NCBI GenBank assembly: GCA_030652475.1 | Contig: JAUSAO010000134.1 | Span: 1 to 64,000, forward strand | From: Gallionella sp. | Lineage (GTDB): Bacteria > Pseudomonadota > Gammaproteobacteria > Burkholderiales > Gallionellaceae | Reading direction: 5' to 3' | DNA: 64,000 nucleotides | Shown: piece by piece, positions 26,645 to 47,040 of the stretch | Numbering within the stretch: the first letter of the stretch is position 1 | Layout: each line of letters opens with the position of its first letter | The notes under the pieces: model-generated | What the model was told of the DNA's origin: nothing | Database searches by the model: none | What the model saw: the letters and a program-made list of their open reading frames with translations, nothing else | Translations under genes and position numbers: made by a program

Positions 26645-26986
26645 CAGCGTCGTGTCGGATTGTGCATCACAGAGCAAGCGACCGGCATCATCAAAGGCGC
26701 GCACGGCACGGCTGATGGCGTATTGCCGGAAGCGTTGCGGGCACTTTCGGCGGAAGCCATCTATGCTCTCGATTTATCTTTGGCAAATGTGCTCAAACAA
26801 CTAGGGAGATGCTGATTAAATCGTCTTTGCGAGGAGCGTAGCGACGTGGCAATCCAGAATTTATTTTATAATCAACATACTGGATTGCCACGCTTCGCTC
26901 GCAATGACAATTATAGTGAATAAATCAGCGCTTCCCTAGAAATTACCGATGACAAACTGGCCGAAAAACCGTTGTCTGATTTGTGA
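26645..26986 (+). pseudogene. 3' remnant of an unidentified gene, split by a MITE
   Basis: A coding-like frame runs from about 26645 (RRVGLCITEQATGIIKGAHG...AIYALDLSLANVLKQL), is interrupted by the 139-bp MITE, and resumes in frame as EITDDKLAEKPLSDL and a stop at 26984-26986 once the MITE and a short duplicated CTAG or TA are removed. The 5' part is missing. I do not recognise the family. It abuts the GH13 remnant, so an old deletion or rearrangement probably joined two gene ends. Confidence 0.5.
26801..26939. mobile_element. 139-bp MITE-like palindromic element, copy 2
   Basis: CTAGGGAGATGCTGATT and AATCAGCGCTTCCCTAG are the terminal inverted repeats. The interior matches copy 1 (23389-23527) with only a few substitutions. 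The flanking frame suggests a target duplication of TA or CTAG. Confidence 0.85.
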
Positions 26987-27026: not shown

Positions 27027-28214
27027 TTATCGCGGGCTGCGCGGCGACTCGCTATCAATCACCACCTGATCGCGCCCATTATGCTTGGCATGGTACAAGC
27101 GCCGATCCGCGCCCTTGAGTAGCTCTTCAGCCGAACAGGGTTCTTCCGGCGTCCAGCTGGAGACGCCGATACTACAACGTACATCCCCCACCTCAAGCGG
27201 CACAATAGCTGTTTTACGCACACGATCCAGAATGCGATTGGCGATCTCCAGCGCGACTGCGGCATCGGCATGCGTCAAGAGCACAACGAATTCTTCACCC
27301 CCATAGCGCACCAGAATATCCGAGTCGCGCATCTGCTCATGGAGTATTTCGGCGAAACCGCGCAACACGGCATCACCCACATCATGTCCATAGGTATCGT
27401 TGATGCGTTTAAAAAAATCGATATCCAGCATCAGGCAACTGAGCGCCTGACTGTGGCGCACACTTTGCTTGAGTTGCGGCGTCAACCATGACCACAGGAA
27501 ATGCCGGTTATAAGCGCCCGTCAATTGATCCCGATTGCTCTGTGATTCCATCTTCATGGCCAGCCGCGCCAATGCGGAAGACTTGGCAACGCTCTCAGTC
27601 ACGTCATTGATGCTGATTGCCGCCAGCGTTTCGCCGCGACTATTGGTCAATGGCGCCACGCTCACCTGTTGCTGCATCAGCTTCAGATCATGCATTGGGG
27701 AAACCAGCGGTATGGGCAGCACATAACGATTCAGCGTCTGCGAGATCAGCTGCGGCGATTTGTGTTTTATACATAACTCAATAGCCGATAGCAGGCGCGG
27801 ACTGTTAAAGTCGACGAACAACTCCGTTAACAGCTTGCCGCATGCCTGCTGTGAAGAAATGCCGGTTTTGCGTTCCAGCCATTGATTCCATCTATGCACG
27901 CGCAAATCCGTGTCAACCAGCAACACGCCGATCATCAAGGTATCGGTCAGATTGGCAAAGAGCTGCGTAAGCTCGGCAAAATCCCTCTGCATTCGGACGA
28001 AAACCAGCAAGTACAGTACCGGGGAAACCAGCACGACCAGCGTGACCGCATCGATGATGCTCCATGTTCTGTCCGAAACTGTAAATGACGTGAGGGGCAT
28101 AATCACATCATGCAGCAATGTCATGAAGAGAAATTCAACGCTGAACACCACGACGCCCACCGCGATAACGATGCGCAGCGGCGTATTGAACCAGCCAGAT
28201 TCCCAGCGTTTCAT
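27027..28214 (-). CDS. Membrane-bound PAS-GGDEF diguanylate cyclase
   Basis: The 395-residue protein has two N-terminal membrane helices (residues about 12-35 and 50-70) and a PAS-like sensor region (about 90-215, beginning DTLMIGVLLVDTDLRVHRWN). A GGDEF domain with an intact active site GGEEF (305-309) follows. An RDSD product-inhibition I-site lies 5 residues upstream, so it should make c-di-GMP and be feedback inhibited. It is the last gene of the minus-strand chemosensory cluster, 42 bases after cheC. The upstream 40 bases from the gene remnant show no terminator. Confidence 0.92.
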   Translation of the reverse strand: MKRWESGWFNTPLRIVIAVGVVVFSVEFLFMTLLHDVIMPLTSFTVSDRTWSIIDAVTLVVLVSPVLYLLVFVRMQRDFAELTQLFANLTDTLMIGVLLVDTDLRVHRWNQWLERKTGISSQQACGKLLTELFVDFNSPRLLSAIELCIKHKSPQLISQTLNRYVLPIPLVSPMHDLKLMQQQVSVAPLTNSRGETLAAISINDVTESVAKSSALARLAMKMESQSNRDQLTGAYNRHFLWSWLTPQLKQSVRHSQALSCLMLDIDFFKRINDTYGHDVGDAVLRGFAEILHEQMRDSDILVRYGGEEFVVLLTHADAAVALEIANRILDRVRKTAIVPLEVGDVRCSIGVSSWTPEEPCSAEELLKGADRRLYHAKHNGRDQVVIDSESPRSPR

Positions 28215-28256
28215 TGCGTGTGCCCCGATGCGTTCAGCGACTCAACCATGTCAACC

Positions 28257-28883
28257 TCACAAACCTTTCAGCAATTTATGCAAGCGTTCAAACAACACCT
28301 GCACCGAATCAACCGACATCAACATCACCATGCGCCCCTCGATTTCACGCTGCGCCGCCTTCAGGTGCGTGAACATGATAATCGCCTGCATCTCACGTCC
28401 CGCATTGTCCCGGTTACGCTGCGCCAGGATGTCCGGCAAATTGCCTTCCATATAACCCGGCAATGACATCCGCACTTCATGGCCCAGCATATCGGCAATC
28501 ACCGCCATCCCTGACGTGATGATGATATTGCCGATTTCCATCATCGCCTCGTGCTCGATGCCGCGCAAATCGTCCTCCCCGGCCCCCTGCATGGAGGGCC
28601 CGACCAGTGCGTGCACCAGCTTTTTGCTGTCCTCTGAAGGAAACATCAGAATGGACGTCCCTTCACTCTGCCCTGAAAAACTCTGCCAAACTGCGGCAAC
28701 CGAAGCCAGCGGATCAAGCTGCAAGGCCTGTGTTACCTGGTCATAGGGAACCACCTGCACCAATGGCACCGTCATCTCGATATGATCGTTCAATAATTCG
28801 GACAGCTGCGTGGCGGCGCGACTCAGGCCGACGTTGGCCAATTCGCGCAATGCGTCGCGTTCCAGCTCATCGAGTTCCATCAT
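28257..28883 (-). CDS. cheC: CheC-like phosphatase of CheY-P
   Basis: CheC-family proteins dephosphorylate CheY-P. The 208-residue protein shows the family pattern (D/S)-x3-E-x2-N-x22-P exactly in its first half (Asp10, Glu14, Asn17, Pro40). The second copy reads E-x3-E-x2-N-x22-P, in EAMMEIGN followed by SLPGYMEG. Two copies is the CheC arrangement; the second site has Glu in place of the usual Asp/Ser. It overlaps the upstream cheY by four bases, so the two are translationally coupled, fitting an enzyme-substrate pair. No cheZ or cheD is present in the cluster. Confidence 0.85.
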   Translation of the reverse strand: MMELDELERDALRELANVGLSRAATQLSELLNDHIEMTVPLVQVVPYDQVTQALQLDPLASVAAVWQSFSGQSEGTSILMFPSEDSKKLVHALVGPSMQGAGEDDLRGIEHEAMMEIGNIIITSGMAVIADMLGHEVRMSLPGYMEGNLPDILAQRNRDNAGREMQAIIMFTHLKAAQREIEGRMVMLMSVDSVQVLFERLHKLLKGL

Positions 28884-29233
28884 GCCACCTGCGCCAACAG
28901 CGCGGCGATTTTTGCCGCATTGACCGGCTTCTCTACAACCTGAATAAAACCGGCTGCCAGCGCCGAATCGACCACAGTTCTTTGAGTATTTGCCGTCAGC
29001 AGCACAAATTTCGCCTTGAGTCCGGCATCCAGCATGACCCGCGCCATTTCCACCCCGTTGTATTCCGGCATGTTGTAATCCAGTATCACCAGCTCCGGTT
29101 GCACTTTCCGCATCTTCTCCAGCGCATCCGGCAACACGGCGGCCTCAAACAGTTCATGCTGCCCGTCTTTAGGCATGTAAGCCTTGAACAACATGCGCGA
29201 AGTCATACTGTCATCCACAATTAAAATTTTCAT
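28880..29233 (-). CDS. CheY-like single-domain response regulator
   Basis: This 117-residue receiver domain has the acidic pair Asp7-Asp8, the phosphoacceptor Asp52 in VILDYNMPEYNG, Thr80 in LLTAN and Lys102 in VEKPVN, so all the key residues are present. There is no output domain. It overlaps both neighbours by four bases: a degenerate HPt-like protein upstream and CheC downstream. It is a natural substrate for CheC and for the cluster CheA. Whether it acts on flagella or as a phosphate sink cannot be told; no flagellar genes are in the window. Confidence 0.93.
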   Translation of the reverse strand: MKILIVDDSMTSRMLFKAYMPKDGQHELFEAAVLPDALEKMRKVQPELVILDYNMPEYNGVEMARVMLDAGLKAKFVLLTANTQRTVVDSALAAGFIQVVEKPVNAAKIAALLAQVA

Positions 29234-29634
29234 CTTGCGTTTCCCTTATTGATTCGGTTTTCTATCACTTGCAGCAAAGTTGAGCGAGGCTTATTGCATG
29301 GCTCGAAGCACTGAGACATATCGCCCCCACAGCGCCCGGCCATCGCAATACCCGCCAATAAATCCTGCCAGGCAGACTGTTCTATCGTCTGCCCTTCCCT
29401 TAGGCAATTGCGCAAATAGCGTGCATAGATCGCCATACTGCGAAAAAAAAGTTCCATTTCCGGCAAATGCACTGCGCGCGCACCGCCGAACAGCGTATCA
29501 AACTCCTGATGTAATTGATCCAGTTGCACACAGCTCAACGGTACGCCGGCTTGCATAATGCCGGCAACCCGTTGCACGCGTTGCCGACAATCCTCACAAA
29601 ATACCTGAAACAGACTATCCTGCATTCTTTCCAT
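29230..29634 (-). CDS. Unknown protein resembling an HPt domain without its histidine
   Basis: The 134-residue protein is helical. It contains DTLFGGARAVHLPEME near residues 46-60, which lines up with the HPt phosphotransfer signature HTLKGGARAVGLPELE. Asp46 stands where the phosphorylated His would be, and Phe49 replaces the conserved Lys. If this alignment is right, it cannot accept phosphate and may act as a docking or inhibitory protein for the adjacent receiver. It lies between cheB and cheY, overlapping cheY by four bases. The HPt relationship is my own inference from motif shape; otherwise it is a protein of unknown function. Confidence 0.6.
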   Translation of the reverse strand: MERMQDSLFQVFCEDCRQRVQRVAGIMQAGVPLSCVQLDQLHQEFDTLFGGARAVHLPEMELFFRSMAIYARYLRNCLREGQTIEQSAWQDLLAGIAMAGRCGGDMSQCFEPCNKPRSTLLQVIENRINKGNAR

Positions 29635-29644
29635 TTCACCGCAC

Positions 29645-30691
29645 CTATTGACGCACGATGCTGCTCAAATACGCAGGCATATTGTCCAGCGTCACCACCT
29701 GATCCACCGCATCGAGTGCGATCGCTGCACCCGGCATGCCATACACCACGGCACTCGCCTCATCCTGTACCAGCGTATGGCCACCGACACGGCGCATCGC
29801 CAGCAAACCGTCCGCGCCATCCACCCCCATGCCCGTCAGCAACGCCCCTATCGCACGGTTCTTACAGGTCATCGCCACCGACTTGAACATCGGACTGGCC
29901 GAAGGCCGAAAACCATTGCAGCGCATCGCCTGATTCAAGTTCACTGCCAGCCCCTCATGCGTGCGGGTCACCAGCAGATGCTGATCGTCCGGCGCGAAAT
30001 AAATCGTTCCCGCCGTCAGCAGCTCGCCTTGCTCAGCCAGCTTGACGTTCAGCAAGGTATTTTCCGCCAGCCAGGCCGCGAGACCACCGACGAAACCCCT
30101 GGAAATATGCTGCGTCACCACGACAGGTACCGGAAAACCAATCGGCAACAAGGCAAATATTCGATGCAAGGCCTGTGGCCCACCGGTAGAACAAGCAATC
30201 GCCAGCAATTCATAGGCCTTGGTGCGCTGATGAATCGCCGTCTCATAGATATCAACGCCACTGGGCCGTTCAACTTTGAAACGTTTGAACAGCTTGACTT
30301 GCGACATGGCTCGCACGGTATCCACCAGATCACGGCGGATTGTTTCGAAATCGGGATGAGTAAACCCGCGCGGCTTTTCCATGACCGCCAGCGCACCTTC
30401 TTCGATGGCGCGGAAGGTGATACGCAATTCTTCATCATCCACACTGGAACTGACCACGACAATCGGCGTCGGGCTGTTCGCCATGATCATGCGCGTCGCC
30501 TCGAAACCGTCCATCACCGGCATGCGGATATCCATGGTGATCACATCCGGCTTCAGGTCACGTGCCATCTGCACCGCTTCGCGCCCGTTTTTTGCGTGAC
30601 CGACCACTTGCATGTCAGGCTGTTGTTGAAAAATCGCCTTGAGCAGCAGCGCAACGACTGATGAATCTTCCACGATCAGGATGCGTAACAT
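29645..30691 (-). CDS. cheB: Chemotaxis protein-glutamate methylesterase CheB
   Basis: CheB removes methyl groups from, and deamidates, chemoreceptors. The N-terminal receiver (MLRILIVEDSSVV, MDIRMPVMDG) is joined to the methylesterase domain. That domain has the catalytic triad regions IACSTGGPQALH (Ser), VTQHISRGFVGGLA (His) and GMGVDGADGLLAMRRVGG (Asp). I chose the ATG at 30691, giving 348 residues; an upstream frame extension of 15 residues lacks similarity. It sits between cheA and the HPt-like gene and would adapt the globin-coupled receptor next to it. Confidence 0.95.
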   Translation of the reverse strand: MLRILIVEDSSVVALLLKAIFQQQPDMQVVGHAKNGREAVQMARDLKPDVITMDIRMPVMDGFEATRMIMANSPTPIVVVSSSVDDEELRITFRAIEEGALAVMEKPRGFTHPDFETIRRDLVDTVRAMSQVKLFKRFKVERPSGVDIYETAIHQRTKAYELLAIACSTGGPQALHRIFALLPIGFPVPVVVTQHISRGFVGGLAAWLAENTLLNVKLAEQGELLTAGTIYFAPDDQHLLVTRTHEGLAVNLNQAMRCNGFRPSASPMFKSVAMTCKNRAIGALLTGMGVDGADGLLAMRRVGGHTLVQDEASAVVYGMPGAAIALDAVDQVVTLDNMPAYLSSIVRQ

Positions 30692-30762
30692 AACCACACT
30701 ACTTTCTTTGTAATCTCGGCGTTGTCTGTTTCTCAATGATCGCAGCGTAACGTTATGCCGAT

Positions 30763-33042
30763 TTAAATCAGCTGGCCCACCACATCCAGCAATACCTTGG
30801 TTTCGAACTGCCCCTTGACGATATAGGCCTCGGCACCCACTTCAATGCCGCGTTTTCTGTCTTCTTCTCTGGCCAGGGATGTCACGATGATGACGGGCAA
30901 TCGTTTCAAACGCTCGCTCTGTTTGATCAGCGCCGTCAGTTCAAAACCATCCATTTTCGGCATTTCAACATCCGTCACTACGAGATCAAAAACGTGTTCC
31001 TGCAACATATCCCACGCCTGCTTGCCATCCACCGCCACGCTGACCTTGTAGCCCGCATGTTCGAGTATGCTTTTCTCCAGGCTGCGCGTCGTGATGGAAT
31101 CGTCCACCACCAGCACCCGCAGCGCTATTGCAAGCGCTACACGGCTCTCAACATGATGCAGATGCGCAAGGCTGCCGCGCATGGCCGAATCCACCAGATC
31201 AGACGGATTGAGCACCATAATCACTTCACCGTTACCCGTCAGAGTGCCGCCGGTAATATTGCGTACGTTCTGCAATAACGAGCGAAATGGCTTGACCACG
31301 ATTTCCCGCTCACCAATCACCTCATCCACCAGAAAAGCCACGCTGTCCCAACCCTTGGCGACCACCATGACCGGCAATATCTTTTTGTTGATACGCTCTT
31401 GCGCTTCCAATTCCAGCGTTGCAGCCAGATCGCGCAGCGGAATACTGCGGCCCCGGTACAGAATGGCATGACTGGCTTCGACTTCGACAATCTGCTCAGG
31501 CCTGATTTCCATGATGCGATCCACCGCCGAGGTGGGAATGGCAAATACCACCCCGCCCGCCCGCACCAGCACACCGTGATCGGTGGCCAACGTAATCGGT
31601 AGTCTGAGAACAAAACGCGTGCCCAATCCTTCGTCGGTTTGTACCTGCACCGAGCCTTTGAGTTTGCGCAGATTCATCACGACTACATCCAGCCCGACGC
31701 CGCGTCCGGAAATACGGGTGATGATATCCTTGCTGGAAAAGCCCGGCCGAAAGATCAGATCGAGTATCTCGTCACGCCCCATCGTGGCCAGCTCGGCCTC
31801 GCTGACGAGCTTCTTCTTTCGAGCGCTGGCGGCGATCTCGTCTACCGAAATACCATTTCCATCATCCTGCACCGTCATCACGATCTGGCTGCCTTCACTG
31901 CTTACCGAAATATGCAAATGCCCTTCGGCAGGCTTGCCTTTGTTCAATCGTTGTTGCGGTGCTTCAATACCGTGATCCAGCGCATTGCGCAGCAAATGAA
32001 CCAGAGGATCGTGTATGCCATCCAGCACCATGCGATCTATTTCAATATCATCGCCACTGATTTCAAAATTGACTTTTTTCCCCAGATCACGCGCAATATC
32101 GCGCACCGAACGCGACATCGGGCGCAACAAGGTGGCCACGGGCACTAATCGCATCATGCGTACGCTATCCTGCAAGGATTCCACCAATATCCCGAGACGG
32201 CTGGTGCTCGAGCGCATCTCACGGTGCGCCCGGGCACTCGCAATATCCAGTTCCGCGACCGTATCCGCGTTGCGTTTCAACCAGCCATCCCTATCAGCTT
32301 GCGATGTTCTGGCCGTTGCACGGTTCCAGCCTGACGTCAATTCCTGCACCCTGTTGCGCAGTTGCTGCATGCTGACCAGATGGTCGTCCATTTCGATCTT
32401 GGCGACCTGCAATTCTTCCATCATGGCGGCCAGATTTTCCAGCTTGTCCACATTCACACGCACCACATCCGTAGCGTGATGCTGATTACCGGCAGCAAGT
32501 TTACTGATTTCAACCAGCCGGTCAGCTTCGATTCCTGCCCCCGTATTCACAATCGGTTGCGGGTGCGGGGGCGCATGAACAACGGCAACGGGTGATGCGG
32601 GCTGATCTTGAAGCGCCACATTAAGACATACGGCCTCAACTGCGACACTTTCCAGCCGGGCAATCAATGCGTTCTTGTCAAAGCCCAGGGATTGTTGAGA
32701 GCCAAAAGCAACCATCGCCTGTCGCATCGCATCCAGCGACTCCAGCACGATATCTGTCGCCGCACCGTCAGGGTTACGGTTTTCGCGTTTTAAAACAGCA
32801 AAAATACTCTCCAGATGATGTGCGATGTCGGCGACATCCATCACTTCCACCCCGCGTGCAGCGCCCTTGATATTGTGAGCCGCACGGAACACGCTTTCCA
32901 GCGTCTGGCGCCGTTCGCTGTCCTCTATCCCCTTCTCCAGCACCAGCAAATCATCGGTAATCGTCTGAAGCTGCTCATCCAGCTCAATGGCAAAGGTGTC
33001 CATCAGCATGCGCATCAATTCCTGATCCAGTCCTAAGGGCAT
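30763..33042 (-). CDS. cheA: Hybrid chemotaxis histidine kinase CheA with C-terminal receiver
   Basis: The 759-residue protein starts at an ATG preceded by AGGAA. The HPt domain has the phosphorylated His56 in AAHNIKGAARG. The dimerisation and ATPase domains follow, with HLLRNALDHGIEAPQQR, VQDDGNGIS and GFSSKDIITRISGRGVGLDVV. A CheW-like domain precedes a C-terminal receiver (RVLVVDDSITTRSLEKSIL, VTDVEMPKMDGFEL). Hybrid CheA is typical of alternative systems such as Wsp or Frz rather than classical flagellar systems. A longer in-frame reading upstream to 33168 overlaps the receptor gene and is rejected. It should phosphorylate CheB, the CheY-like protein and perhaps the HD-GYP regulator. Confidence 0.95.
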   Translation of the reverse strand: MPLGLDQELMRMLMDTFAIELDEQLQTITDDLLVLEKGIEDSERRQTLESVFRAAHNIKGAARGVEVMDVADIAHHLESIFAVLKRENRNPDGAATDIVLESLDAMRQAMVAFGSQQSLGFDKNALIARLESVAVEAVCLNVALQDQPASPVAVVHAPPHPQPIVNTGAGIEADRLVEISKLAAGNQHHATDVVRVNVDKLENLAAMMEELQVAKIEMDDHLVSMQQLRNRVQELTSGWNRATARTSQADRDGWLKRNADTVAELDIASARAHREMRSSTSRLGILVESLQDSVRMMRLVPVATLLRPMSRSVRDIARDLGKKVNFEISGDDIEIDRMVLDGIHDPLVHLLRNALDHGIEAPQQRLNKGKPAEGHLHISVSSEGSQIVMTVQDDGNGISVDEIAASARKKKLVSEAELATMGRDEILDLIFRPGFSSKDIITRISGRGVGLDVVVMNLRKLKGSVQVQTDEGLGTRFVLRLPITLATDHGVLVRAGGVVFAIPTSAVDRIMEIRPEQIVEVEASHAILYRGRSIPLRDLAATLELEAQERINKKILPVMVVAKGWDSVAFLVDEVIGEREIVVKPFRSLLQNVRNITGGTLTGNGEVIMVLNPSDLVDSAMRGSLAHLHHVESRVALAIALRVLVVDDSITTRSLEKSILEHAGYKVSVAVDGKQAWDMLQEHVFDLVVTDVEMPKMDGFELTALIKQSERLKRLPVIIVTSLAREEDRKRGIEVGAEAYIVKGQFETKVLLDVVGQLI

Positions 33043-33073
33043 AGTCGTTCCTGTCGAATGTTTTTGCGCACCC

Positions 33074-34615
33074 TTACAATTTGTACGTGCTGACGCTATC
33101 GCGCAGACGTTCGGCCACACGACGCAAGTCCGCCGATGAACTCTTGCTTTGCTGCGCGCTGCTGACAAATTGCGCCGTCACCTTGTTGATTTCCTTCATC
33201 GCCATGGTCACCTGCTCCAGCCCGATAAAACCCTGGCGCACCACAGCGGTAATTTGCTGGCTGGCCATGGCCGTTTCGCGCACCACTTCGCCCAACTGAT
33301 TCATCACCTCTCCGCTACGCTGCACCGACACCATCCCGGCATTCACCCCTTTACTGCCCTCCTCAGTGGCCATCACGGCGCGATCCGTGGCATGACGTAT
33401 GTCCTGCAATATTTTTTGTACCTGCGCGGTGGATTGCTGTGACTGTTCCGCCAGTTCACGCACTTCCGCCGCCACTACCGCGAAGCCTTTACCTGCCTCA
33501 CCCGCCTTGGCCGCTTCAATCGAGGCGTTCAGCGCCAGCATTTTGGATTGCTGTGCCAGATTGGTCACCACAGAGGTGATTTCACCGATTTGCTGAGTTT
33601 GTTCGCTGAGTGCCAGTATGGTTTGAGCGATGCCTTCTACACGCTCGCGGATAGCCACCATGCCTGCAATAGCCTGTTCCACCGCCACACCACCCTGTTC
33701 GCTCTCACGACGACTGCGTTCCGCTGCCTCGCCCAGCACCTGCACCTTCTCCATCGTCTGAGCCGACATCGCCTTGATTTCATCCAGCGATGTCGTGGTC
33801 TGGTTGACCGCCGCCGCCTGTTCAGATGCGCCCGCCGACTGGCCGTTGATCGAATTCTGCAACTGCTCCAGCGCGCTGTAGATGGTATTGATCGCCTCGG
33901 TGGTGCCCGATGCCACGCCCGCCAAACTTTCCGTCATGGCATTGAGATTACGCCCCAATTGCGCCAGATCGTCATTGCCCGTGACATCGAGTCGTTTGCT
34001 CAGATCACCTTGCGTCACATCCGCAATGAACGTCTGGTAAGTTGCCAGCCGGGTTTCAAGATATTCCTTAGACATGCTCACACCGCGCAAATCGGTCATC
34101 AGACCATGTATGTACGTATCCATGGCCAGTTGCGAATCAATGGAAATGATTTTATGCACGGCTTGCAAGGCCGCCTCACGCTTGCGCGCACTCCAGCGGT
34201 ATTGGCGTTGAACCAGCTTGACGATTTCGCAACTGTACACACTGTAGCTGCCCAGATACCAGCGCGGGGTCAGACCAATCCGGTTGTGAATCACGCCGAT
34301 CTTGAGACGCCGTTCAAAATAGGCATCGCCATAATCCCCGTCGAACATTTCCAGCAAATAGCGTTTCTGCGATGTTTTGAGGCGATCAATATTCGATCCC
34401 GCATCCTTGATGATATTCATCAGCTCCTTATAGCGCTCGACATTGGCATAAAACACATCGACGAAATCATCCGCATGTTGCTGAACGACGGGGCGCAACG
34501 CCTTGAGTGCGCGCGCATCTTCGTCAGTAAAATCAACAAACTTCTTGCGCGATGCCTGCTCATTCGCATCAATGCCCATAAACTGGGTCAAGGACTGTGT
34601 ATTCATGTCTATCAT
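33074..34615 (-). CDS. Soluble globin-coupled methyl-accepting chemotaxis receptor (HemAT-like)
   Basis: The N-terminal about 170 residues form a protoglobin-type sensor. His110 in LKIGVIHNRIGLTPRWYLG is in the place of the proximal haem ligand of HemAT-type globin-coupled sensors. There is no membrane segment, so the receptor is cytoplasmic. The C-terminal signalling domain has the conserved hairpin tip (LAQQSKMLALNASIEAAKAGEAGKGFAVVAAEVRELAEQS). HemAT proteins sense oxygen, so this is the likely input of the cluster. The start could be the first ATG or the ATG three codons later. It lies between cheW and cheA. Confidence 0.93.
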   Translation of the reverse strand: MIDMNTQSLTQFMGIDANEQASRKKFVDFTDEDARALKALRPVVQQHADDFVDVFYANVERYKELMNIIKDAGSNIDRLKTSQKRYLLEMFDGDYGDAYFERRLKIGVIHNRIGLTPRWYLGSYSVYSCEIVKLVQRQYRWSARKREAALQAVHKIISIDSQLAMDTYIHGLMTDLRGVSMSKEYLETRLATYQTFIADVTQGDLSKRLDVTGNDDLAQLGRNLNAMTESLAGVASGTTEAINTIYSALEQLQNSINGQSAGASEQAAAVNQTTTSLDEIKAMSAQTMEKVQVLGEAAERSRRESEQGGVAVEQAIAGMVAIRERVEGIAQTILALSEQTQQIGEITSVVTNLAQQSKMLALNASIEAAKAGEAGKGFAVVAAEVRELAEQSQQSTAQVQKILQDIRHATDRAVMATEEGSKGVNAGMVSVQRSGEVMNQLGEVVRETAMASQQITAVVRQGFIGLEQVTMAMKEINKVTAQFVSSAQQSKSSSADLRRVAERLRDSVSTYKL

Positions 34616-34681
34616 GCTGCTCTCCCGTAAATTTCAGAAACTCTAATTAGTGTTGATCACAACTTCTCATTCACACCCTGC

Positions 34682-35392
34682 TTAACGATGCACCCGCAAG
34701 GCCGGATCACCCAGCAAGGCCTTCAGATTCAACAGCGTGACACTGCCGTCATGAATGCCCAGCACATACTCCATGTTCGACACCCCTTCCGAGCTTAACG
34801 GCGGCGAGACCTCCGCATCCTGATACGCTTCATTTCCATCCACGCCATCCACCAGCAGGCCGGTGCGCATGCCCTCATGCTTGACCACGATAATGCGTGC
34901 CTCATCGCTCATCGCGACGGCGGGCATGCGAAAAAATTGTTTGAGATCGAGTATCGTCAACAACTCGCCCCTGTAATTGACCACGCCAGAAACGAACGCC
35001 GGTGTACATGGCACACGTGCCAGATTGCCGACATAAAGCAGTTCCTCCAGGTAGGCGTAAGGGATGCCATAACGCTCTACCGCACCAAGGCGAAAACGCA
35101 AATACTGATCGCGCAACTCATGCTGCTGTTGACTCAGCGGCTTGGCAATCGCCCGGGCACGCGCCTCCAGCACCTTGCGCGACTCCGCATCCTGCGGCAT
35201 CAATGCAGCCGCAGATTGCGTCACGGCAACCGGCCATTCCGCTGCTCCTAACATACAGGATTCGACCCACGGCGCACTTTCCGTCTGTGTCAGGCTCTCG
35301 GCAAAAGCCAGCGCCTGCTCAAAATCCGGCTTAGCCAGGATCGCATCGCCCAATACCGCATCCTGATTTTGCTTTACTTTTCGTTTAGCCAT
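34682..35392 (-). CDS. cheW: CheW-domain coupling protein with N-terminal extension
   Basis: This 236-residue protein has a C-terminal CheW domain (about residues 95-230: PYAYLEELLYVGNLARVPCTPAFVSGVVNYRGELLTILDLKQFFRM). An N-terminal region of about 90 residues has no recognised domain. It would link the globin-coupled receptor to CheA. The start at 35392 has an AGGCAAG site and gives MAKRKVKQNQD; the longer frame overlaps parA and is rejected. It follows the ParA-type gene by 13 bases, which hints that its N-terminal extension could contact ParA, as in other chemosensory positioning systems. That link is inference. Confidence 0.9.
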   Translation of the reverse strand: MAKRKVKQNQDAVLGDAILAKPDFEQALAFAESLTQTESAPWVESCMLGAAEWPVAVTQSAAALMPQDAESRKVLEARARAIAKPLSQQQHELRDQYLRFRLGAVERYGIPYAYLEELLYVGNLARVPCTPAFVSGVVNYRGELLTILDLKQFFRMPAVAMSDEARIIVVKHEGMRTGLLVDGVDGNEAYQDAEVSPPLSSEGVSNMEYVLGIHDGSVTLLNLKALLGDPALRVHR

Positions 35393-35405
35393 CTTGCCTG
35401 CCCTG

Positions 35406-36056
35406 TTATACGCCGAGTTGTTGTTTGATTTCCGCAACCAGCGCAGCAAATTCTTCCTGCGCATGACGATCCGGCCATTCCGCAACCGACAATCCGCGCG
35501 CCAGCGCCTCTGAATAGGCCACCCGATAACCCAGCTTGCTATGCAAAGCCGTCAGCCCCAATTGCTTCTCAGCCGCCTCACCCAATTCACGCGCCGAGCG
35601 GGTATGTTCGCGGAAACGATTCCAGACTATGCGTGCATTGATATCCAGTCGTCGTGCGCTCGCCTCTTTGATGGTTTTCACCAGATCGGCCGTTGCCCAG
35701 ATTTCTGCCGCGCTCGCCCCCAGGGGAATCAAACACAGGCGACTCATCACCATGATGGCTCGCGTCACTTCCGCCAAGCGGGGCGGGCCGTCAATGATTA
35801 CGAAATCATTAACCGCCACCAATTCGCGGGCTTTACTCACCAGCGCGCGATAGTCCGCCACGCCCGCCACGGTCAATTGCCCCAGCCGACCGGCATCTTC
35901 ACGCAATTTCCCCCATGATGCGCTGGTACCTTGCGGCACATCCGCATCAATCAACGCGGTACGGCCATGCCGGGCCAGCGCGGCAGCCAGATTGGTCGCC
36001 AGCGTGGAGCGCCCTACGCCACCTTTAACCTGGACGATGCCTATGATGCGTCCCAC
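35406..36056 (-). CDS. ParA/MinD-type ATPase associated with the chemosensory cluster
   Basis: The 216-residue protein begins with GTG at 36056 behind a strong AGGGAGG site: VGRIIGIVQVKGGVGRSTLATNLAAAL. This is a deviant Walker A motif, but the invariant lysine before Ser/Thr is Arg (KGGVGRS instead of KGGxGKT/S). The first signature lysine is kept. Walker A' and B-like segments are ALIDADVPQGT and FVIIDGPPRLAEVT. It resembles plasmid-type ParA without an N-terminal DNA-binding domain, and no ParB is adjacent. ParA homologues in Che clusters (PpfA in Rhodobacter, ParC in Vibrio) position chemoreceptor arrays; a like role is inferred. Confidence 0.88.
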   Translation of the reverse strand: MGRIIGIVQVKGGVGRSTLATNLAAALARHGRTALIDADVPQGTSASWGKLREDAGRLGQLTVAGVADYRALVSKARELVAVNDFVIIDGPPRLAEVTRAIMVMSRLCLIPLGASAAEIWATADLVKTIKEASARRLDINARIVWNRFREHTRSARELGEAAEKQLGLTALHSKLGYRVAYSEALARGLSVAEWPDRHAQEEFAALVAEIKQQLGV

Positions 36057-36140
36057 GCGAACCTCCCTGGCAGGCAACCGCTCCACGCTCGCCCGGCTCC
36101 GGGGAAACAATGGGGAAAGTGGTAACGGGCCACGCCGCAA

Positions 36141-37646
36141 CTATTTGGCATCGCGCAACATTTCGATTTCATTTTGCAACACCTGCGCGAAGCGCCGATA
36201 AGTCATACCCGCAGCGTTATGCAATTCGCGTTGCGGATCGCCCGCCTGCGCAATCTTCAAGGCATTCGCCAGACTTTTAAGCGCACCGGGCAAGTCCTTG
36301 GCACGCACGCGCAACATTGCCAGCTCATAATGCGCTTCAAGAAAGGACCGATCCAGATACAGCGTCCTGCGAAATGCCTCCTCCGCCTCCGGGCCGCGAT
36401 CCAGTTCCGCGAGTATCATGCCCTGCATCAAATAGCTATGCTTGTTGACGATGTCCAGTTGCAGGCTGCGCTCACACGCTTGCAGCGCCAACTCCGTGCG
36501 CCCCATATTGGCTAGTACTTTGGCCTTCATTTGCCAGAAATCGCTGCTTTCACTGCCGGGCTGGCAAACTGCATCCAATTGCACCAGTGCCGCCGCCCAA
36601 TCGGAGCATTTCAGCAACTTTATAATCCCTGCCATGTCCGGCTGAAGCGGATGCCCCGATACAGGCAGCTGCGCCGGTGGAACAGACAGCCGAACTGGCT
36701 CCGCAAGCGCCTGTGCAACAGGACTCGCCTGAGCGGCACGCTTGTCACCGGACAAGCCGGTGTCCTGTACGCCACCTTTACGGAAATAGCCCACCCACTT
36801 CGTTTGCACCAATTCAAGCCCGGTATGCCGGTGATACATCGGGTCGGATGCACCCAGCATCAACACTCCCTGATCCAGCAGACAATCGGCGTATTGCGAC
36901 ATGCAACGCTGAACCGTTTGGCGATCCAGATAAATAAACACATTGCGGCACAGAATCAAATCCAGAGCGTTGGTTTCACTCAAGATCGACGGGTAAACGT
37001 CTGCCGCCAGATTGAGATAGGCAAAATGCACCATTTGCCTGATTTCCGGATGAATTTCATACGCATTCCCCGCAGGCACAAACCAGCGTTCGCGCAATAC
37101 CGATGGCGTGGCGCGGAACGACCATTCGGAATAGCGCCCCGCAATGGCCCTGGACACCACTTCGCTGTTGATATCGGTGCCACGCAGGTGAATGCGCCAT
37201 TTTTCGATGTCCGGAATCAGTTCGTGCAACAGCAACGCGAGGGTGTAGATTTCCTGCCCCTCCGAACAGCCCGCGCTCCAGACACGCAATGACAGATTTC
37301 CGCTCGCCCGTTTGGCAGCGATCATCTCGGGCAACAGCGTGTTGCGCAACAAATCAATTTGCTCGCTATCCCGGAAAAAATAGCTTTCGCCTACCGTGAT
37401 CCCCGCAATCAAATATTCAAGCGGCGTAGTCAACCCCTGGGATTGTTGCAGTTCATGCAGATAGTGCGCGCAGTCGCCATAGCCAAAGCGTTCACAGCCA
37501 CGGCGCGCCGTGTCGCGCAGATTGTGCAACTGATGATCCTGCAGCACGATGCCGGTACGCTGCGCAATCAGCCTGCAAAATGCCTCTTCGCAAGCCACGT
37601 CGAGATCGACACCCTGTTTATGCGCGTAGGGAAAGGTGTTAATCAT
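36141..37646 (-). CDS. cheR: CheR-type methyltransferase with C-terminal TPR region
   Basis: The 501-residue protein has a CheR N-terminal helical domain and the methyltransferase domain with VGESYFFRDSEQ, the SAM-binding VWSAGCSEGQEIYTLALLL and LDLILCRNVFIYLD. A proline-rich linker leads to a C-terminal region with tetratricopeptide-like repeats (about residues 340-480). This WspC/FrzF-like architecture is typical of alternative chemosensory systems, where TPRs restrict activity or dock partners. It would methylate the globin-coupled receptor. The ATG at 37646 overlaps the end of the upstream cheW. A GTG five codons earlier is also possible. Confidence 0.92.
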   Translation of the reverse strand: MINTFPYAHKQGVDLDVACEEAFCRLIAQRTGIVLQDHQLHNLRDTARRGCERFGYGDCAHYLHELQQSQGLTTPLEYLIAGITVGESYFFRDSEQIDLLRNTLLPEMIAAKRASGNLSLRVWSAGCSEGQEIYTLALLLHELIPDIEKWRIHLRGTDINSEVVSRAIAGRYSEWSFRATPSVLRERWFVPAGNAYEIHPEIRQMVHFAYLNLAADVYPSILSETNALDLILCRNVFIYLDRQTVQRCMSQYADCLLDQGVLMLGASDPMYHRHTGLELVQTKWVGYFRKGGVQDTGLSGDKRAAQASPVAQALAEPVRLSVPPAQLPVSGHPLQPDMAGIIKLLKCSDWAAALVQLDAVCQPGSESSDFWQMKAKVLANMGRTELALQACERSLQLDIVNKHSYLMQGMILAELDRGPEAEEAFRRTLYLDRSFLEAHYELAMLRVRAKDLPGALKSLANALKIAQAGDPQRELHNAAGMTYRRFAQVLQNEIEMLRDAK

Positions 37647-38121
37647 CGCTATGCTGCACAAGCGGATAAAGTCCGGCCTGTGTCAGCCATGCCGCGTCCA
37701 GCAGCAATGCCAACCCCAAATCGGTATGCGCGGATGCACGAAACGCCGCGCCGTAACGAGCCAGCTCACGAGTGAGTTGGCGGTCCTGCTCATGCAGATT
37801 CTGAACGCCGACGATATCCTGCACGATCACACCGATGCGCTGTCCGTCATGCACGCATATCATGACGACGGTATCCAGCGTATAGGGCGATGAGGGCAAT
37901 CCCAGGCGAATGGCGAGATCGATGACGGCCAGGCTGTTGCCGGCATAATTCATGATGCCGGCAACATACGGCGCGCAGCCCGGCATGGCCTGCATTGCCA
38001 CCAGCGCAAGGGTGCGCTCCACGCTGCTCAGATCAATACAGGCCAGCATACCGTCCAACCTGACCATCAAAACCTGGCAGGTATCACATACGACTGGGTT
38101 TTCATCAAGTTCGACCATCAT
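37639..38121 (-). CDS. CheW-like coupling protein
   Basis: The 160-residue protein is essentially one CheW domain (QVLMVRLDGMLACIDLSSVERTLALVAMQAMPGCAPYVAGIMNYAGNSLAVIDLAIRLGL). It is the second CheW in the cluster and lacks the N-terminal extension of the other. It begins a few bases after the HD-GYP regulator stop and overlaps the start of cheR, so it is translated as part of the same operon. Two CheW proteins could serve distinct receptors or tune array composition, as is common in alternative systems. Several ATG codons at the start make the exact N-terminus uncertain. Confidence 0.9.
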   Translation of the reverse strand: MMVELDENPVVCDTCQVLMVRLDGMLACIDLSSVERTLALVAMQAMPGCAPYVAGIMNYAGNSLAVIDLAIRLGLPSSPYTLDTVVMICVHDGQRIGVIVQDIVGVQNLHEQDRQLTRELARYGAAFRASAHTDLGLALLLDAAWLTQAGLYPLVQHSDD

Positions 38122-38124
38122 CAA

Positions 38125-39201
38125 TTAGTCCTTGGCATACCACTCCATGACACCGCTGCTCTGAATGCTTGCCAACACCTCGACGCTGCGATCATTCTGG
38201 ATTTGTTCCGAACGTACCAGGTCATCGGGGCGTTCACGAACAATCTTCAAAAATGTCGCCATCAACTGCGGGTCCCAGAATCCGTCCGCCGTTTCCTGCT
38301 CCATGATGGAGATGACTTTTTCGCGCGGGAAAGCAGGCTTGTACGGACGCTCACTGGACAAGGCATCAAAGATATCGACAATCTGGAACACCCTCGCTAC
38401 CAGCGGGATTTCCTCGCCTTTCAGTCCGGCCGGATAACCCGTGCCATTCCACTTTTCATGGTGGCAACGCACGATGTCTGCGGTGCGTTTCATGGTGCGC
38501 AACGGGCCGCACAGCGCGGCGCCAATCTCTGTGTGCTGTTTCATGATCTGCCATTCTTCCGCATCCAGCTTGCCTTTCTTGAGCAGGACATTATCCGGTA
38601 TGCCGAGCTTGCCGATGTCATGCAGCACCCCGCCACGGCGCAATGCATCCAGAGAGTCCTGATCCAATCCCAGCACCTTGCCGAACAGAACGCCGGTATG
38701 CGCCAGACGGTCGCAATGATCTCCCGTATCGTGGTCACGCGCCTCGACCATGCGCCCGAGCGAGAGCAATACGGTTTCCGCGTCGTCCAGCTGGTCAATG
38801 AGACGCTTGCGCTCGATTGCGGCTTTGACCCTTGCTATCAGTTCAATACTATTAAAAGGCTTGGTGACATAATCGTCCGCACCCACATCCATGCCCCTTG
38901 CCACATCATCAGGCGCCCCCCTTGAAGTCACCATAATTACCGGCAACAGCTTCATCCCAAGCTCCTGACGAATACGGAGACAGGTCTCGAAACCATCAAT
39001 CCCCGGCATCATCACATCCAGCAACACCAGGTCGAACTTTTCATGGCGCAGGATTTCCAGTGCCTGCATGCCATCACTCGCCTCGACGATCTGATATTCA
39101 GGCGGCCTCAGCACATAACTCAGCAGCTTGAGATTCGTCGCCATATCATCCACGGCGAGTATTCTGGCCGCCGCCACGTTCTTATTTAACGCTGAAATCA
39201 T
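38125..39201 (-). CDS. Response regulator with HD-GYP c-di-GMP phosphodiesterase output
   Basis: The 358-residue protein has an N-terminal receiver (ILAVDDMATNLKLL; phosphoacceptor Asp62 in LVLLDVMMPGIDG; KPFNSIEL). The output domain has the HD motif in GGVLHDIGKLGIPDNVLLKKGKL, HTEIGA, CHHEKWNGTGYPAGLKGEEIPL and a final helix bundle. HD-GYP enzymes hydrolyse c-di-GMP. It appears to be the first gene of the 12-gene chemosensory operon, overlapping or abutting the downstream cheW. It is the most direct output for the cluster CheA, linking oxygen sensing to c-di-GMP breakdown. Confidence 0.94.
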   Translation of the reverse strand: MISALNKNVAAARILAVDDMATNLKLLSYVLRPPEYQIVEASDGMQALEILRHEKFDLVLLDVMMPGIDGFETCLRIRQELGMKLLPVIMVTSRGAPDDVARGMDVGADDYVTKPFNSIELIARVKAAIERKRLIDQLDDAETVLLSLGRMVEARDHDTGDHCDRLAHTGVLFGKVLGLDQDSLDALRRGGVLHDIGKLGIPDNVLLKKGKLDAEEWQIMKQHTEIGAALCGPLRTMKRTADIVRCHHEKWNGTGYPAGLKGEEIPLVARVFQIVDIFDALSSERPYKPAFPREKVISIMEQETADGFWDPQLMATFLKIVRERPDDLVRSEQIQNDRSVEVLASIQSSGVMEWYAKD

Positions 39202-41788: not shown

Positions 41789-43408
41789 TTATATCGCCAT
41801 CACCGCCCCGTTCATATCACCGGGAACGGCTGTGTAGCGGAAGCGTGAGACGCTGCGATGCAGCAGTTCGGAGGCCTTGGCCAATCCGGCCATTTCATCG
41901 CGTGTATTCTCGATGTCGTTACGGGTGTGGGTGCTGATGTTGTGCACTTCGGCCATGTGTGTGGCGATCCGCTCCCCCGAACTGGATTGCTCCTGGGTGG
42001 CCTGGGCGATTTGCTGCATGCGTACTGCCACCAGTTGCATGGAATCGCCAATTTCGGCCAGCACCGCGTCGGTTTTTTTGCCGCGAATCACCCCGACTCT
42101 GGCCGTATCACGTGCTGACTGCATGACGCTGACTGCATTTTGCGCAGAGATTTGCACTTCATGCAGCAATTCCGAAATATCCTTGGCCGAACGAGCCGTC
42201 TGATCTGACAATCTTCTGACCTCGTCCGCCACCACCGCAAAACCACGGCCGTGCTCACCGGCTCTTGCCGCTTCTATGGCCGCATTCAGGGCCAGCAGGT
42301 TGGTCTGACCCGCGATTTCTTTAATCATCTTGCTGATATCGTTGACCCTATGCAGCGTCTGATTGAGCCCATCCATGGTCTGAACCGAATCGTTCATGGT
42401 CGCATCCAGACTTGAGATGGCCTCCAGGGTTTCGCGGCCGGATGCACTGCCTGCACTGACCTGTTCGCGCGTCCGGTTTGCGGCATCCGCAGCAAAGCTC
42501 GCATTTTCGGCAATAGCAAAAATGGTGGCGCGCATTTCCTGAATCGAGTCATTGGCATGAGAGGCCTTCGAGGATTGCGTATTCGCATTCGTGCTGACGG
42601 CATGCGTCATCTGCAGCACCCTGCTGCTTGCTCTGGATGCCTGCTCAGAGGAAAAATTGACCTCACGCAGGATATTTTCAAAACTTTCGATAAAGGAATT
42701 GACCGTGCCCGCCATGACGCCTATCTCGTCGGCATGGCTGTTCGGCAGGCGATGGGTGAGATCACCCTTGATCAGATGAGCCATCGCGCTGATAACGTCA
42801 TCTACCCGCTTTTTCAAGTGACGATTGAAACGCGCCTGGAAAGTTATGATGACCATTCCGGCAAAAAACAGCGGCAGGACGACAATCCAGATAATACGAT
42901 TGACGGCGCTGTTGATCGAGGCATTGGAATCAGCCCATGCCGACTGATTATCCTCCAGAAGCGCGTCGATGCCGGCAATCATCGGGCCGATATGCATATC
43001 GTAGAGCATATCCTGTGCCGTAACCGCATCTGCCGGGCTGGTGCTGGCAATCTGCACAGCCAGCGCCAGTCCTGCCGCATACCCTTCCCAGGCGTTTATC
43101 ACCTGCTTCAGCTTGTTCTGATCCACGTCAACCTGAGCCGCAACGAGCGATCCCTGATGCCGGGCGCGTATCTGCTTATCTGCTGATGCCAGTGCCTGCC
43201 CTGTTTCCTGAAGGATAGGGTCTGCGCGCGAAATCGCCAGTGCTTCACTCTTGATGGCTGACAAATTGGCGGCGAACATCTGCTGCTTTTGATATTGCTC
43301 GAAGGTGCTGCGCAACATGCCGAGCTGAATAACGGCGAAGAGAATGACGCCCGACAGGCTGAGCAAAGTAATGATGGCTATCAGACGCAGTTGTGCCTGT
43401 AGTGTCAT
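41789..43408 (-). CDS. Transmembrane methyl-accepting chemotaxis protein
   Basis: The 539-residue receptor has an N-terminal membrane helix (residues about 8-30) and a periplasmic helical sensor domain (about 30-190) with alanine-rich helices. A second membrane helix, a HAMP domain and a cytoplasmic signalling domain with tip sequence [37 protein letters not shown] complete it. The ligand is unknown. It overlaps the upstream EAL-CBS-GGDEF gene by four bases, so the two are co-translated, an uncommon direct pairing of a receptor with a c-di-GMP enzyme. It lies outside the main che cluster but could use its CheA and CheW. Confidence 0.92.
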
Positions 43409-45267
43409 GACTGGGCTACCTCGTAAAGATCACGTTGTTCAATGAAAAGACTGTTGCCTGAAATTTTCTTCGCCATCTTCTTGGCGTCGGACATGGCCGC
43501 CGAGACTTCGTGATGCGACGCGAACTGCCCGGGCCACACCTGGATTGCGCCGATGGAAAGACTGGTAAGCGGATGAAATTTAACCTGTCCGTCGCGCCCT
43601 TCACTGGCATATCCTCCTTCAGCCAGATGTGCCGCCTTAAACAACAAGGAAGCAGCCTGTTCAAACGAACGCAACGCCTGCTCACAACGCGCCTTCCAGT
43701 CGCGGCTTTGCATCAGCAGAATGAAATCATCGCCGCCGATATGACCGATAAAGTCCTGTTTCTGATCACACGCCCAACCTAGCAGTCGCCCGGTGAGCTG
43801 GATCATCTCGTCGCCTTTGCGGTAGCTGTAACTGTCGTTGAAGGGCTTGAAGTGATCGAGGTCGCAATAACAGGCAACAAAGGGCGTGTTCGCCTGCAGC
43901 AGGCGTTCTATATGCTCGTTGATCGGCACATTGCCCGGCAGCAAGGTCAGCGGATTGGCATAGCGTGCCGCCTCCAGTTGCATCTTGGTCAGCTCGCGCA
44001 GCAAATCCTGCCCGGATGCCACACCGATATAGCGTTTATTCTCGGTGATGATAAAACCGTCGGCAAAATGACGGCTGTCCGCCTCTGCCAGAAAATGGCT
44101 CAATTCCTCTATCGGCATGCTTTTTTCCACCAGCAGCGGTTCACTCTGCACCAATCCGCCGCACGGCTTCTTGCCCATCAATTCGCGCTGAAAGGGCTTG
44201 GCAAAGCGGTCGATGAACTGATAGCGGTTGATAAGCCCGACCGGCATGCCGCCTTTGACCACGGGGATGATATGTAGCGCGGGGTTGCTGGCAAAACGCT
44301 CAAACACCTGATCATTCGATGTTTCAGGCTGCACCGGTTCAACATAGCTCAGCAGCTTCTGGGCCGTTATCTGCGAGCGCTGACCCAAATCGGCTGTCGG
44401 GAAAATGGCGATATTCGATGAATTGATGATGCTGCCGGTTTCGCTGGCAGCCAGCAAAGGCGGCGTGGGACTCGGACGGGCAATGAAATACCCCTGACCC
44501 AGCGCGATGCCGATGTCCTTTACCACGCGCAACTCGCCTTCAGTTTCTATCCCCTCGGCAATCACGCGCGTACCGCAACTCTCGGCGATCTGCTGTATGG
44601 ACTTGAGGAATTGCAATTTGATCGGGTCGTAATCCACACCCTGCACGAAATGCATATCGATTTTGATGTATTCCGGACGCAGCTCGGACCACAGACGCAA
44701 GCTGGAAAAACCCTCGCCCAGATCATCGATGGCGATTTTGAAGCCCATCGCACGATAGTGCAGCAGCGCGCTGCGCATCGCTTCAAAATCAAAGGTCGGT
44801 TGATTCTCGGTGATTTCCATCACGACCCGTGCCGGATCGATATTGAGCGAGCGCATGAATTCCAGCGTCTGCCCGTTTTTAAAGCTGGGATGAGCCAGCG
44901 CTTCCGGACTGATGTTGAGGAACAAATTGCCCGGCAATTTTTGTCTGGAAAAGGCCTCCAGCACAATCTGGCGCGACAGCATTTCTACTTCCAGCGACAA
45001 GTCCTGTTGTTCAGCCGCACAAAATAAATTGATAGGCGAATGCAGAGGGCTATCCGCCGGACCGCGGATCAGACCTTCAAAACCGAGAAATTCTCCGCTC
45101 TTGAGATCGATGATGGGCTGAAACAAGGCGCTCAATTTGCGTTGCGCGATAATTTCCTGGAGCGGCGTCATGACCGGCTCTGGCGCCAGAACGAGATTAC
45201 CCCGAAATTGCGCACACGGCGTACGGGAGCTCAAATGATGAGGTTCAACTGGTAACGTGGCAAACAT
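43405..45267 (-). CDS. EAL-CBS-GGDEF c-di-GMP signalling protein
   Basis: The 620-residue cytoplasmic protein has an N-terminal EAL domain. It shows EGL (64-66) in place of EAL but keeps the catalytic glutamates and aspartates in [33 protein letters not shown] and LGQGYF. Two CBS motifs follow (about 300-430), then a C-terminal GGDEF domain whose motif reads GGDDF (511-515). EAL-CBS-GGDEF order is a known architecture. EAL activity is plausible, and the GGDDF site is a variant that may or may not be active. It is coupled to the downstream receptor gene. The 231-base upstream region holds no gene. Confidence 0.92.
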
Positions 45268-47031: not shown

Positions 47032-47040
47032 ATTTTTCAA

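Follow-up and report, generated by a model that had tools for sequence, protein, structure and literature searches.

In the Wsp system, a chemosensory system with cyclic di-GMP (c-di-GMP) output, the genes stand in the order CheW, CheR-TPR, CheW, CheA-REC, CheB. CheR fused to TPR repeats and multidomain response regulators are described as traits of the alternative cellular function (ACF) chemosensory pathways (PMC3447774; here and below, statements follow the portions of the cited papers that were available). ParA homologues occur in che operons of 77 of 206 species (PMC2829493), and ParP joins a CheW-like domain to a ParC-binding N-terminus (PMC5706961). For ParC of Halothiobacillus neapolitanus, CheW is given as a partner, and a positive, disordered N-terminus is described as the general means by which partners of the ParA/MinD family act (PMC10241942). 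HemAT is a known aerotaxis receptor, and Corallococcus has a PAS-globin cluster for aerotaxis, the published case closest in aim (PMC6194562). Freshwater iron oxidisers are reported to carry many chemotaxis and GGDEF genes (PMC3770913). Here we analyse a chemosensory operon in a 64,000-nucleotide stretch of DNA from Gallionella sp. (assembly GCA_030652475.1, contig JAUSAO010000134.1, positions 1 to 64,000; the whole stretch is called the window), in which twelve consecutive minus-strand genes occupy positions 27027-39201.

By its domains the operon belongs to the ACF-type chemosensory pathways, and its gene order resembles that of Wsp, a likeness absent from the initial annotation of the window. 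We give a slight preference to a reading in which a cytoplasmic ACF-type array would turn O2 into a c-di-GMP signal, would be carried as ParA cargo via the tail of its second CheW, and would have its phosphate flow tuned by a stand-alone pseudo-HPt protein. More tentatively, and with a little less than even confidence, we propose that a ParA with an Arg in its P-loop and a tail grafted on the second CheW of a Wsp-like array form a positioning module for a c-di-GMP rather than a taxis pathway, gained and lost as a unit, with a conserved, phosphorylation-dead P1 mimic as dedicated regulator. From 39201 downwards, the genes are as follows.

38125..39201, minus strand: REC-HD-GYP response regulator, predicted c-di-GMP phosphodiesterase and predicted direct CheA output (Pfam Response_reg, HD_5; HD..HDIGK..HHE..GYP)
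37639..38121, minus strand: CheW, first coupling protein, WspB position (Pfam CheW; start adjusted)
36141..37646, minus strand: CheR methyltransferase with C-terminal TPR, WspC-like, an ACF hallmark (Pfam CheR, TPR)
about 35406..36056, minus strand: ParA-type ATPase of the VQxKGG[VA]GRS subfamily, 216 aa (Pfam AAA_31/CbiA; start inferred)
34682..35392, minus strand: second CheW, in the WspD position, extended at the N-terminus by a tail (basic and disordered), a short KPDFEQALAFAE helix and a linker; proposed as partner of ParA, 236 aa (Pfam CheW in the C-terminal part)
33074..34615, minus strand: soluble protoglobin-HAMP-MCP receptor, HemAT-like (Pfam Protoglobin, E 9.9e-46)
30763..33042, minus strand: hybrid CheA-REC kinase, WspE position (Pfam Hpt, HATPase_c, CheW, Response_reg; start adjusted)
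29645..30691, minus strand: CheB methylesterase with REC (Pfam and NCBIfam; start adjusted)
29230..29634, minus strand: stand-alone CheA P1-like pseudo-HPt by prediction, 134 aa, Asp at the phospho-His position (alignment, profile, AlphaFold, Foldseek)
28880..29233, minus strand: CheY single-domain receiver (Pfam Response_reg)
28257..28883, minus strand: CheC-type phosphatase with two ExxN sites (Pfam CheC and CheX; motifs)
27027..28214, minus strand: PAS-GGDEF diguanylate cyclase with I-site, no receiver domain, probably membrane-anchored (Pfam GGDEF and PAS)

The twelve genes and their domains, as named in the initial annotation, were borne out by open reading frames (ORFs), Pfam and motifs. 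Its description of the genes as mostly overlapping or closely spaced holds for the close spacing, which runs from -8 to +84 nt after start adjustment, whereas some of the overlaps were artefacts of over-long ORFs; the later start corrections, those of ParA, the extended CheW, CheA and CheB among them, were inferred from homologues and spacing. Judging by the spacing, the twelve genes are presumably co-transcribed, and promoter and terminator scans of the operon gave sites no more frequent than in shuffled sequence. A motif scan located HD, HDIGK and GYP in the HD-GYP protein, AHNIKG in CheA, and, in the cyclase, RDSD-5-GGEEF, its I-site plus active site. Pfam likewise agrees with the earlier call of a globin-coupled receptor (Protoglobin-HAMP-MCPsignal) and identifies no ParB among the twelve genes. 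A crude hydropathy scan marked two hydrophobic segments in the GGDEF protein and none in the globin receptor; this is a hint only, since CheB, although soluble, has two stretches marked by the scan as well.

A figure legend in one study of ACF pathways names 'metal-dependent phosphatase cd00077' among their outputs (PMC3447774). Both ACF traits are found in the window by Pfam, the CheR-TPR fusion and a multidomain response regulator, REC-HD-GYP. We take cd00077 to be the HD domain, and HD-type outputs are therefore presumably not new as such. In a CheA tree of 58 rows, drawn from 103 loci with CheA (the 48 best CheA loci minus L099, nine chosen others, the window and E. coli), the window falls within a clade of 25 rows, all Pseudomonadota, with an SH-aLRT support of 100.

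The twelve-gene order recurs outside the window. All twelve genes stand in the same order in G003, of the same genus, and in a metagenome-assembled genome (MAG) of Sulfuricella denitrificans (L094), the latter with one extra receptor; L192 (G779) and L094 hold the same proteins, were treated as the same Sulfuricella contig and were counted once. HGW-Gammaproteobacteria-1 (L098) has eleven genes, without ParA, and an additional receptor farther along. G022 runs from HD-GYP to the tailed CheW, then a PAS histidine kinase insert, the globin receptor, more receptors, CheA, CheB, the HPt-like protein and CheY. The insert, at L057:7636-8736 between tailed CheW and globin receptor, is a PAS-HisKA-HATPase kinase gene. 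G028, again of the same genus, is without ParA and without the CheY-CheC-cyclase end, and G620, G492 and G551, which form one genus in another class of Pseudomonadota, keep HD-GYP, CheW, CheR, CheW, globin receptor and CheA.

Counting the window, the 25-row clade has a protoglobin receptor in 17 clusters, a stand-alone HPt-like gene in 14, full-length REC-HD-GYP in nine (eight orthologues besides the window's), CheC in six and ParA between CheR and CheW in four; rows L086 and L112 end at contig ends. Among 79 loci outside the clade, of which L099 duplicates the clade member L081, protoglobin and stand-alone HPt-like genes were found in none. Weak ParA matches on the other strand in L080 and L095 (E about 1e-10), both in the clade, were excluded from the count, and L130, outside it, has a weak ParA match on the opposite strand, apart from CheR and CheW. 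At L089:4576-5790 a separate protoglobin gene with a GGDEF match beside it lies near that locus's cluster, which has no globin receptor; it is not among the 17. With HD-GYP in 9/25 and CheC in 6/25, outputs vary, and a fixed "HD-GYP + globin + ParA" pathway was set aside, ParA and HD-GYP both being optional. A CheY-CheC-cyclase trio after CheB also occurs in clusters lacking the globin receptor, L097 13320-15844 and L117 13213-14621 (Coxiellaceae and Francisellaceae MAGs), and therefore looks like a module of its own. Searches at class, phylum and order level scored 2-7 candidates per genome, so that absences taken from them are soft, and the scan of named genomes used two short peptide patterns and speaks for those among the matches listed.

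Residues 1-190 of the receptor match HemAT (1or4) in phmmer at E 6e-24, over an alignment of 144 residues. His110 and Tyr56 are present in 18/18 aligned globin receptors, and we take these to be the HemAT positions of the haem His and the B10 Tyr, the proximal His and distal Tyr. The receptor would bind haem and O2. Extra receptors with a NIT (nitrate/nitrite) domain occur in the Sulfuricella and G456 clusters (seen at L192:7209-9425, in Sulfuricella, and at L091:6413-8614); they would suit an array responding to electron acceptors and hint at O2 and nitrate as inputs to a single array.

The ParA protein scores 163 bits against NCBIfam ParA_partition, under the cut-off of 180, and its nearest PDB sequences are plasmid ParF/ParA proteins. 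In alignment it keeps the ParA/MinD motifs KGG, DxDxPQG and DGPP (deviant Walker A with signature Lys, Walker A' and Walker B). The P-loop VQxKGG[VA]GRS has Arg in place of the second P-loop Lys in 7/7 members of the subfamily; Lys stands there in the other 44/44 surveyed ParA loci. Among 61 genomes, the window's own and 60 relatives, ParA was matched at E 1e-12 in 18, beside che genes in three (the window's own, G003 and G022). A class-level search of 369 genomes returned ParA at E 1e-22 or better in 25, own included, and the 25 ParA loci of the other 24 showed no other gene like those of the operon in flanking DNA of up to 1.5 kb. A profile built from four ParAs was run over 399 genomes of the order and gave five matches: the window, Sulfuricella, che clusters in G975 and G992, and, in G1016, a ParA that lies apart from che genes. 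Six distinct ParA-bearing clusters are thereby known, with ParA between CheR and the second CheW in all.

ParA is an optional part of the pathway. A 29-row CheA tree, in which L112 was omitted and L193, L194 and three outgroup rows were added, places the ParA-less G266 and G028 nested among ParA-bearing rows (forks 99/94 and 100/99). A close ParA elsewhere in the genome was found in neither: none at 1e-15 in G028 and a best match of 1.5e-26 in G266, against 1.6e-93 or better for che-linked ParAs. From this nesting, ParA and tail may have been lost together twice.

The second CheW bears a basic tail and an ALxFA[EQ] helix in 6/6 ParA-bearing clusters; the tail motif occurs in 0/20 ParA-less clade clusters with the second CheW in view, the 21st, L112, ending before its CheW. 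The strict form KPxFExALxFA is found in the window, G003, G022 and Sulfuricella, a middle form with Asp for Glu, KPQFDEALAFA, in G975, and only ALGFAE in G992. In 8174 ORFs from 109 loci there is no further case of the strict or middle form, and the relaxed form is present in six further ORFs of this set, all beyond the first 75 residues. AlphaFold models residues 7-19 and 36-55 of the extended CheW at pLDDT under 50, with a helix at 24-34 and the CheW fold from about residue 95. The tail is the likely ParA partner. Regarding the extended CheW as a proven ParP homologue was set aside, and the claim is limited to likeness of layout.

The pseudo-HPt has no Pfam match at E 0.001, an Hpt match below that threshold at E 0.002, and no NCBIfam name. 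Stand-alone members were counted only for ORFs under 250 aa, and the iterated hidden Markov model also drew the CheA P1 of most loci. Fourteen aligned stand-alone members, window included, share invariant R19, Q43, E44, D46 and A68, fall to 20% identity with the window protein, and keep a gene place after cheB. Their profile matches CheA P1 at E 3.6e-7, and its alignment, from which the column pairing is read, sets D46 against the phospho-His, F49 against the conserved Lys and A68 against the invariant Glu. The phosphorylatable His is thus not present, and with Asp in that column in 14/14 the protein is HPt-like in fold only. The AlphaFold model (pLDDT 83.9) has CheA P1 1i5n as its best Foldseek match (TM 0.80, E 0.01, probability 1.00; none below E 0.001). 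By profile and predicted structure, then, this is a conserved stand-alone CheA P1-like protein. The initial annotation had called it a degenerate HPt-like protein, but had overlooked that it is conserved. Although it offers no His for phosphorylation, the face around the phosphosite is conserved, which makes docking to receivers or to the kinase domain its likely role.

In the mechanism that we favour, the soluble globin receptor would sense O2, or another haem ligand, and control CheA-REC via the two CheW proteins, while CheR-TPR and CheB would set adaptation. CheA would phosphorylate the HD-GYP receiver as direct output as well as CheY, whose signal CheC would end, and the membrane PAS-GGDEF cyclase would give opposing synthesis, tied somehow to the CheY-CheC pair. 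In this branch, the basic disordered tail and KPxFExALxFA helix of the second CheW would bind ParA and stimulate its ATPase; the array could be distributed across the nucleoid or held on it and be passed to both daughters at division, in the way suggested for PpfA/TlpT, through a CheW-like adaptor as in ParC/ParP. The pseudo-HPt, a phosphorylation-dead P1 copy, would dock on receivers (or the kinase domain) and tune phosphate flow. This O2-to-c-di-GMP reading fits, since in further clusters, too, a globin receptor is accompanied by HD-GYP and a diguanylate cyclase. The pathway as initially annotated, in which O2 sets c-di-GMP through a positioned array, gains from this co-occurrence, but ParA is no fixed part of it (4/25 clade clusters); the positioning we still infer, now with a specific candidate partner in the CheW tail.

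Several observations weigh against this mechanism. L195:6832-7479 in G1016 encodes a ParA of the Arg-P-loop subfamily with no che genes seen around it, and no close adaptor of the tailed-CheW kind was found in that genome (best E 6e-9). Other parts do not travel with ParA: the globin receptor is present in 5/6 ParA-bearing clusters, HD-GYP in 4/6 and pseudo-HPt in 4/6. G992 has ParA and tail with a PAS-type receptor instead of the globin one, and in G975 and G992 no HD-GYP, pseudo-HPt or CheC lies within the 20 kb examined. Within the clade, HD-GYP was not seen in 16/25 clusters (some end at contig ends, e.g., L095 and L112), and CheC is in only six. Separate gains of ParA remain an alternative to losses, the tree requiring at least four ParA changes. 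The motif was already known when G975 and G992 were fetched, and its middle and relaxed forms were defined with these two clusters in view. The ParA-tail pair test on the 29-row tree yields only three independent pairs on branches with support; all three agree (sign test p 0.25). The test summarises the motif surveys, motif states having been entered equal to ParA states since those surveys showed them to agree. A short basic start, MAKIRKK, persists in the ParA-less G028, so that basic residues alone are not diagnostic. The pseudo-HPt role is itself a guess, and with FliM in the genome a flagellar output of CheY is possible.

That last point belongs to an unlikely but serious alternative, in which the operon is an aerotaxis pathway whose CheY and CheC act on the flagellar motor, with the c-di-GMP enzymes as side branches. 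CheC is a CheY-P phosphatase in taxis systems, which suits this explanation, as does the flagellar switch gene FliM. The aerotaxis role of HemAT speaks for it too (PMC6194562). It has to contend with the ACF traits, CheR-TPR and multidomain response regulators, with two further contigs of the 3.06 Mb genome that hold CheW genes in two other che clusters, and with G022, which keeps HD-GYP and CheY while CheC and cyclase are missing; in G028 HD-GYP is likewise retained, although the cluster has lost sight of none but lacks CheY, CheC and that cyclase. A Wsp system with an exchanged receptor would share the order CheW-CheR(TPR)-CheW-...-CheA-CheB and the c-di-GMP output, yet we hold it to be quite improbable: the window's CheA lies in a 25-row clade that excludes L174 and L175, two Wsp-like references with the order receptor, CheW, CheR, CheA, CheB, which we take to be Wsp from gene order (a second CheW was not detected in them, L174 is without a GGDEF gene, and the source records are unannotated there). 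No WspR-type REC-GGDEF is in the operon, where the GGDEF protein has no REC, and pseudo-HPt, CheC and ParA are additional; a plain Wsp system was set aside on the CheA tree.

For ParA itself, an improbable alternative is that it has no part in array positioning and came into the operon as a passenger gene for a partition-type ATPase. Its optional, patchy occurrence, the relative apart from che genes in G1016 and the plasmid ParF as nearest PDB sequence would be expected of such a gene; against it, ParA stands directly before the tailed CheW in 6/6 clusters, tail and ParA presence match row by row on the tree, and ParA identity to the window (95% in G003, 79% in G022, 67% in Sulfuricella) tracks CheA closeness. 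That the pseudo-HPt is a decaying, functionless relic is barely credible: the His, the conserved Lys and the Glu of CheA P1 are all replaced, but five residues are invariant in 14 members down to 20% identity, the gene place after cheB is kept and the predicted fold is intact.

Around the operon, a 16-nt inverted repeat (94%) just past the last gene, at 26845-26892, resembles a dispersed palindromic repeat or a terminator. Upstream, at 41789-45267, a membrane-type methyl-accepting chemotaxis protein (MCP) and, directly after it and on one strand with it, an EAL-CBS-GGDEF protein form a possible second c-di-GMP input, and 45499-47040 encodes a Fic-domain protein of 513 aa.

No published description of such a gene set was found in a literature search that covered best-ranked titles and abstract openings and few subscription journals, and the available parts of PMC6956133 and PMC13401364 do not contain one. 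ParA in che operons and partner tails of CheW type are published, and the principle is therefore known; the setting and the CheW tail are new, as far as these searches go. If the proposal is true, ParA positioning would extend from taxis arrays to an array that sets c-di-GMP, and array placement and sharing at division could give daughter cells unequal c-di-GMP levels. The ParA-associated tail is a small, testable peptide, and the pseudo-HPt, which is conserved but has no name in Pfam or NCBIfam, comes with a clear structural hypothesis. The window organism shares its order with the sulfur oxidiser Sulfuricella, and the pathway recurs in Pseudomonadota from Sulfuricella to other classes, where a link of O2 to the choice between motile and sessile life is plausible.

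Compared with the Wsp system of Pseudomonas, the locus shares the order of CheW, CheR-TPR, CheW, hybrid CheA-REC and CheB and, by prediction, the c-di-GMP output. Wsp has the membrane receptor WspA and the regulator WspR, whereas the window has a soluble globin receptor placed before CheA and a REC-HD-GYP plus a separate cyclase; it adds CheY, CheC, pseudo-HPt and ParA, and its CheA belongs to a separate clade. With HemAT and other globin-coupled sensors it has in common a soluble MCP with a protoglobin and the positions of haem His and B10 Tyr, but its receptor sits in a cluster of c-di-GMP type. The pseudo-HPt resembles CheA P1 in predicted fold and profile match; CheA P1 is a domain with phospho-His and invariant Glu, while the pseudo-HPt stands alone with invariant Asp and invariant Ala there. 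Vibrio ParC/ParP and H. neapolitanus ParC, to which the locus is likened by description, also pair a ParA-type ATPase with an adaptor that resembles CheW and contacts the ATPase through its N-terminal part (PMC5706961; PMC10241942); these are known from chemotaxis clusters, whereas the window's cluster is of ACF type and has a cytoplasmic receptor, its CheW tail is short (KPxFExALxFA) and its ParA has Arg in the P-loop. In CheOp3 of Rhodobacter sphaeroides, PpfA is likewise a ParA homologue in the operon for a cytoplasmic chemoreceptor cluster (PMC2829493; PMC5706961), but its partner is the receptor TlpT, and the candidate partner in the window is CheW.

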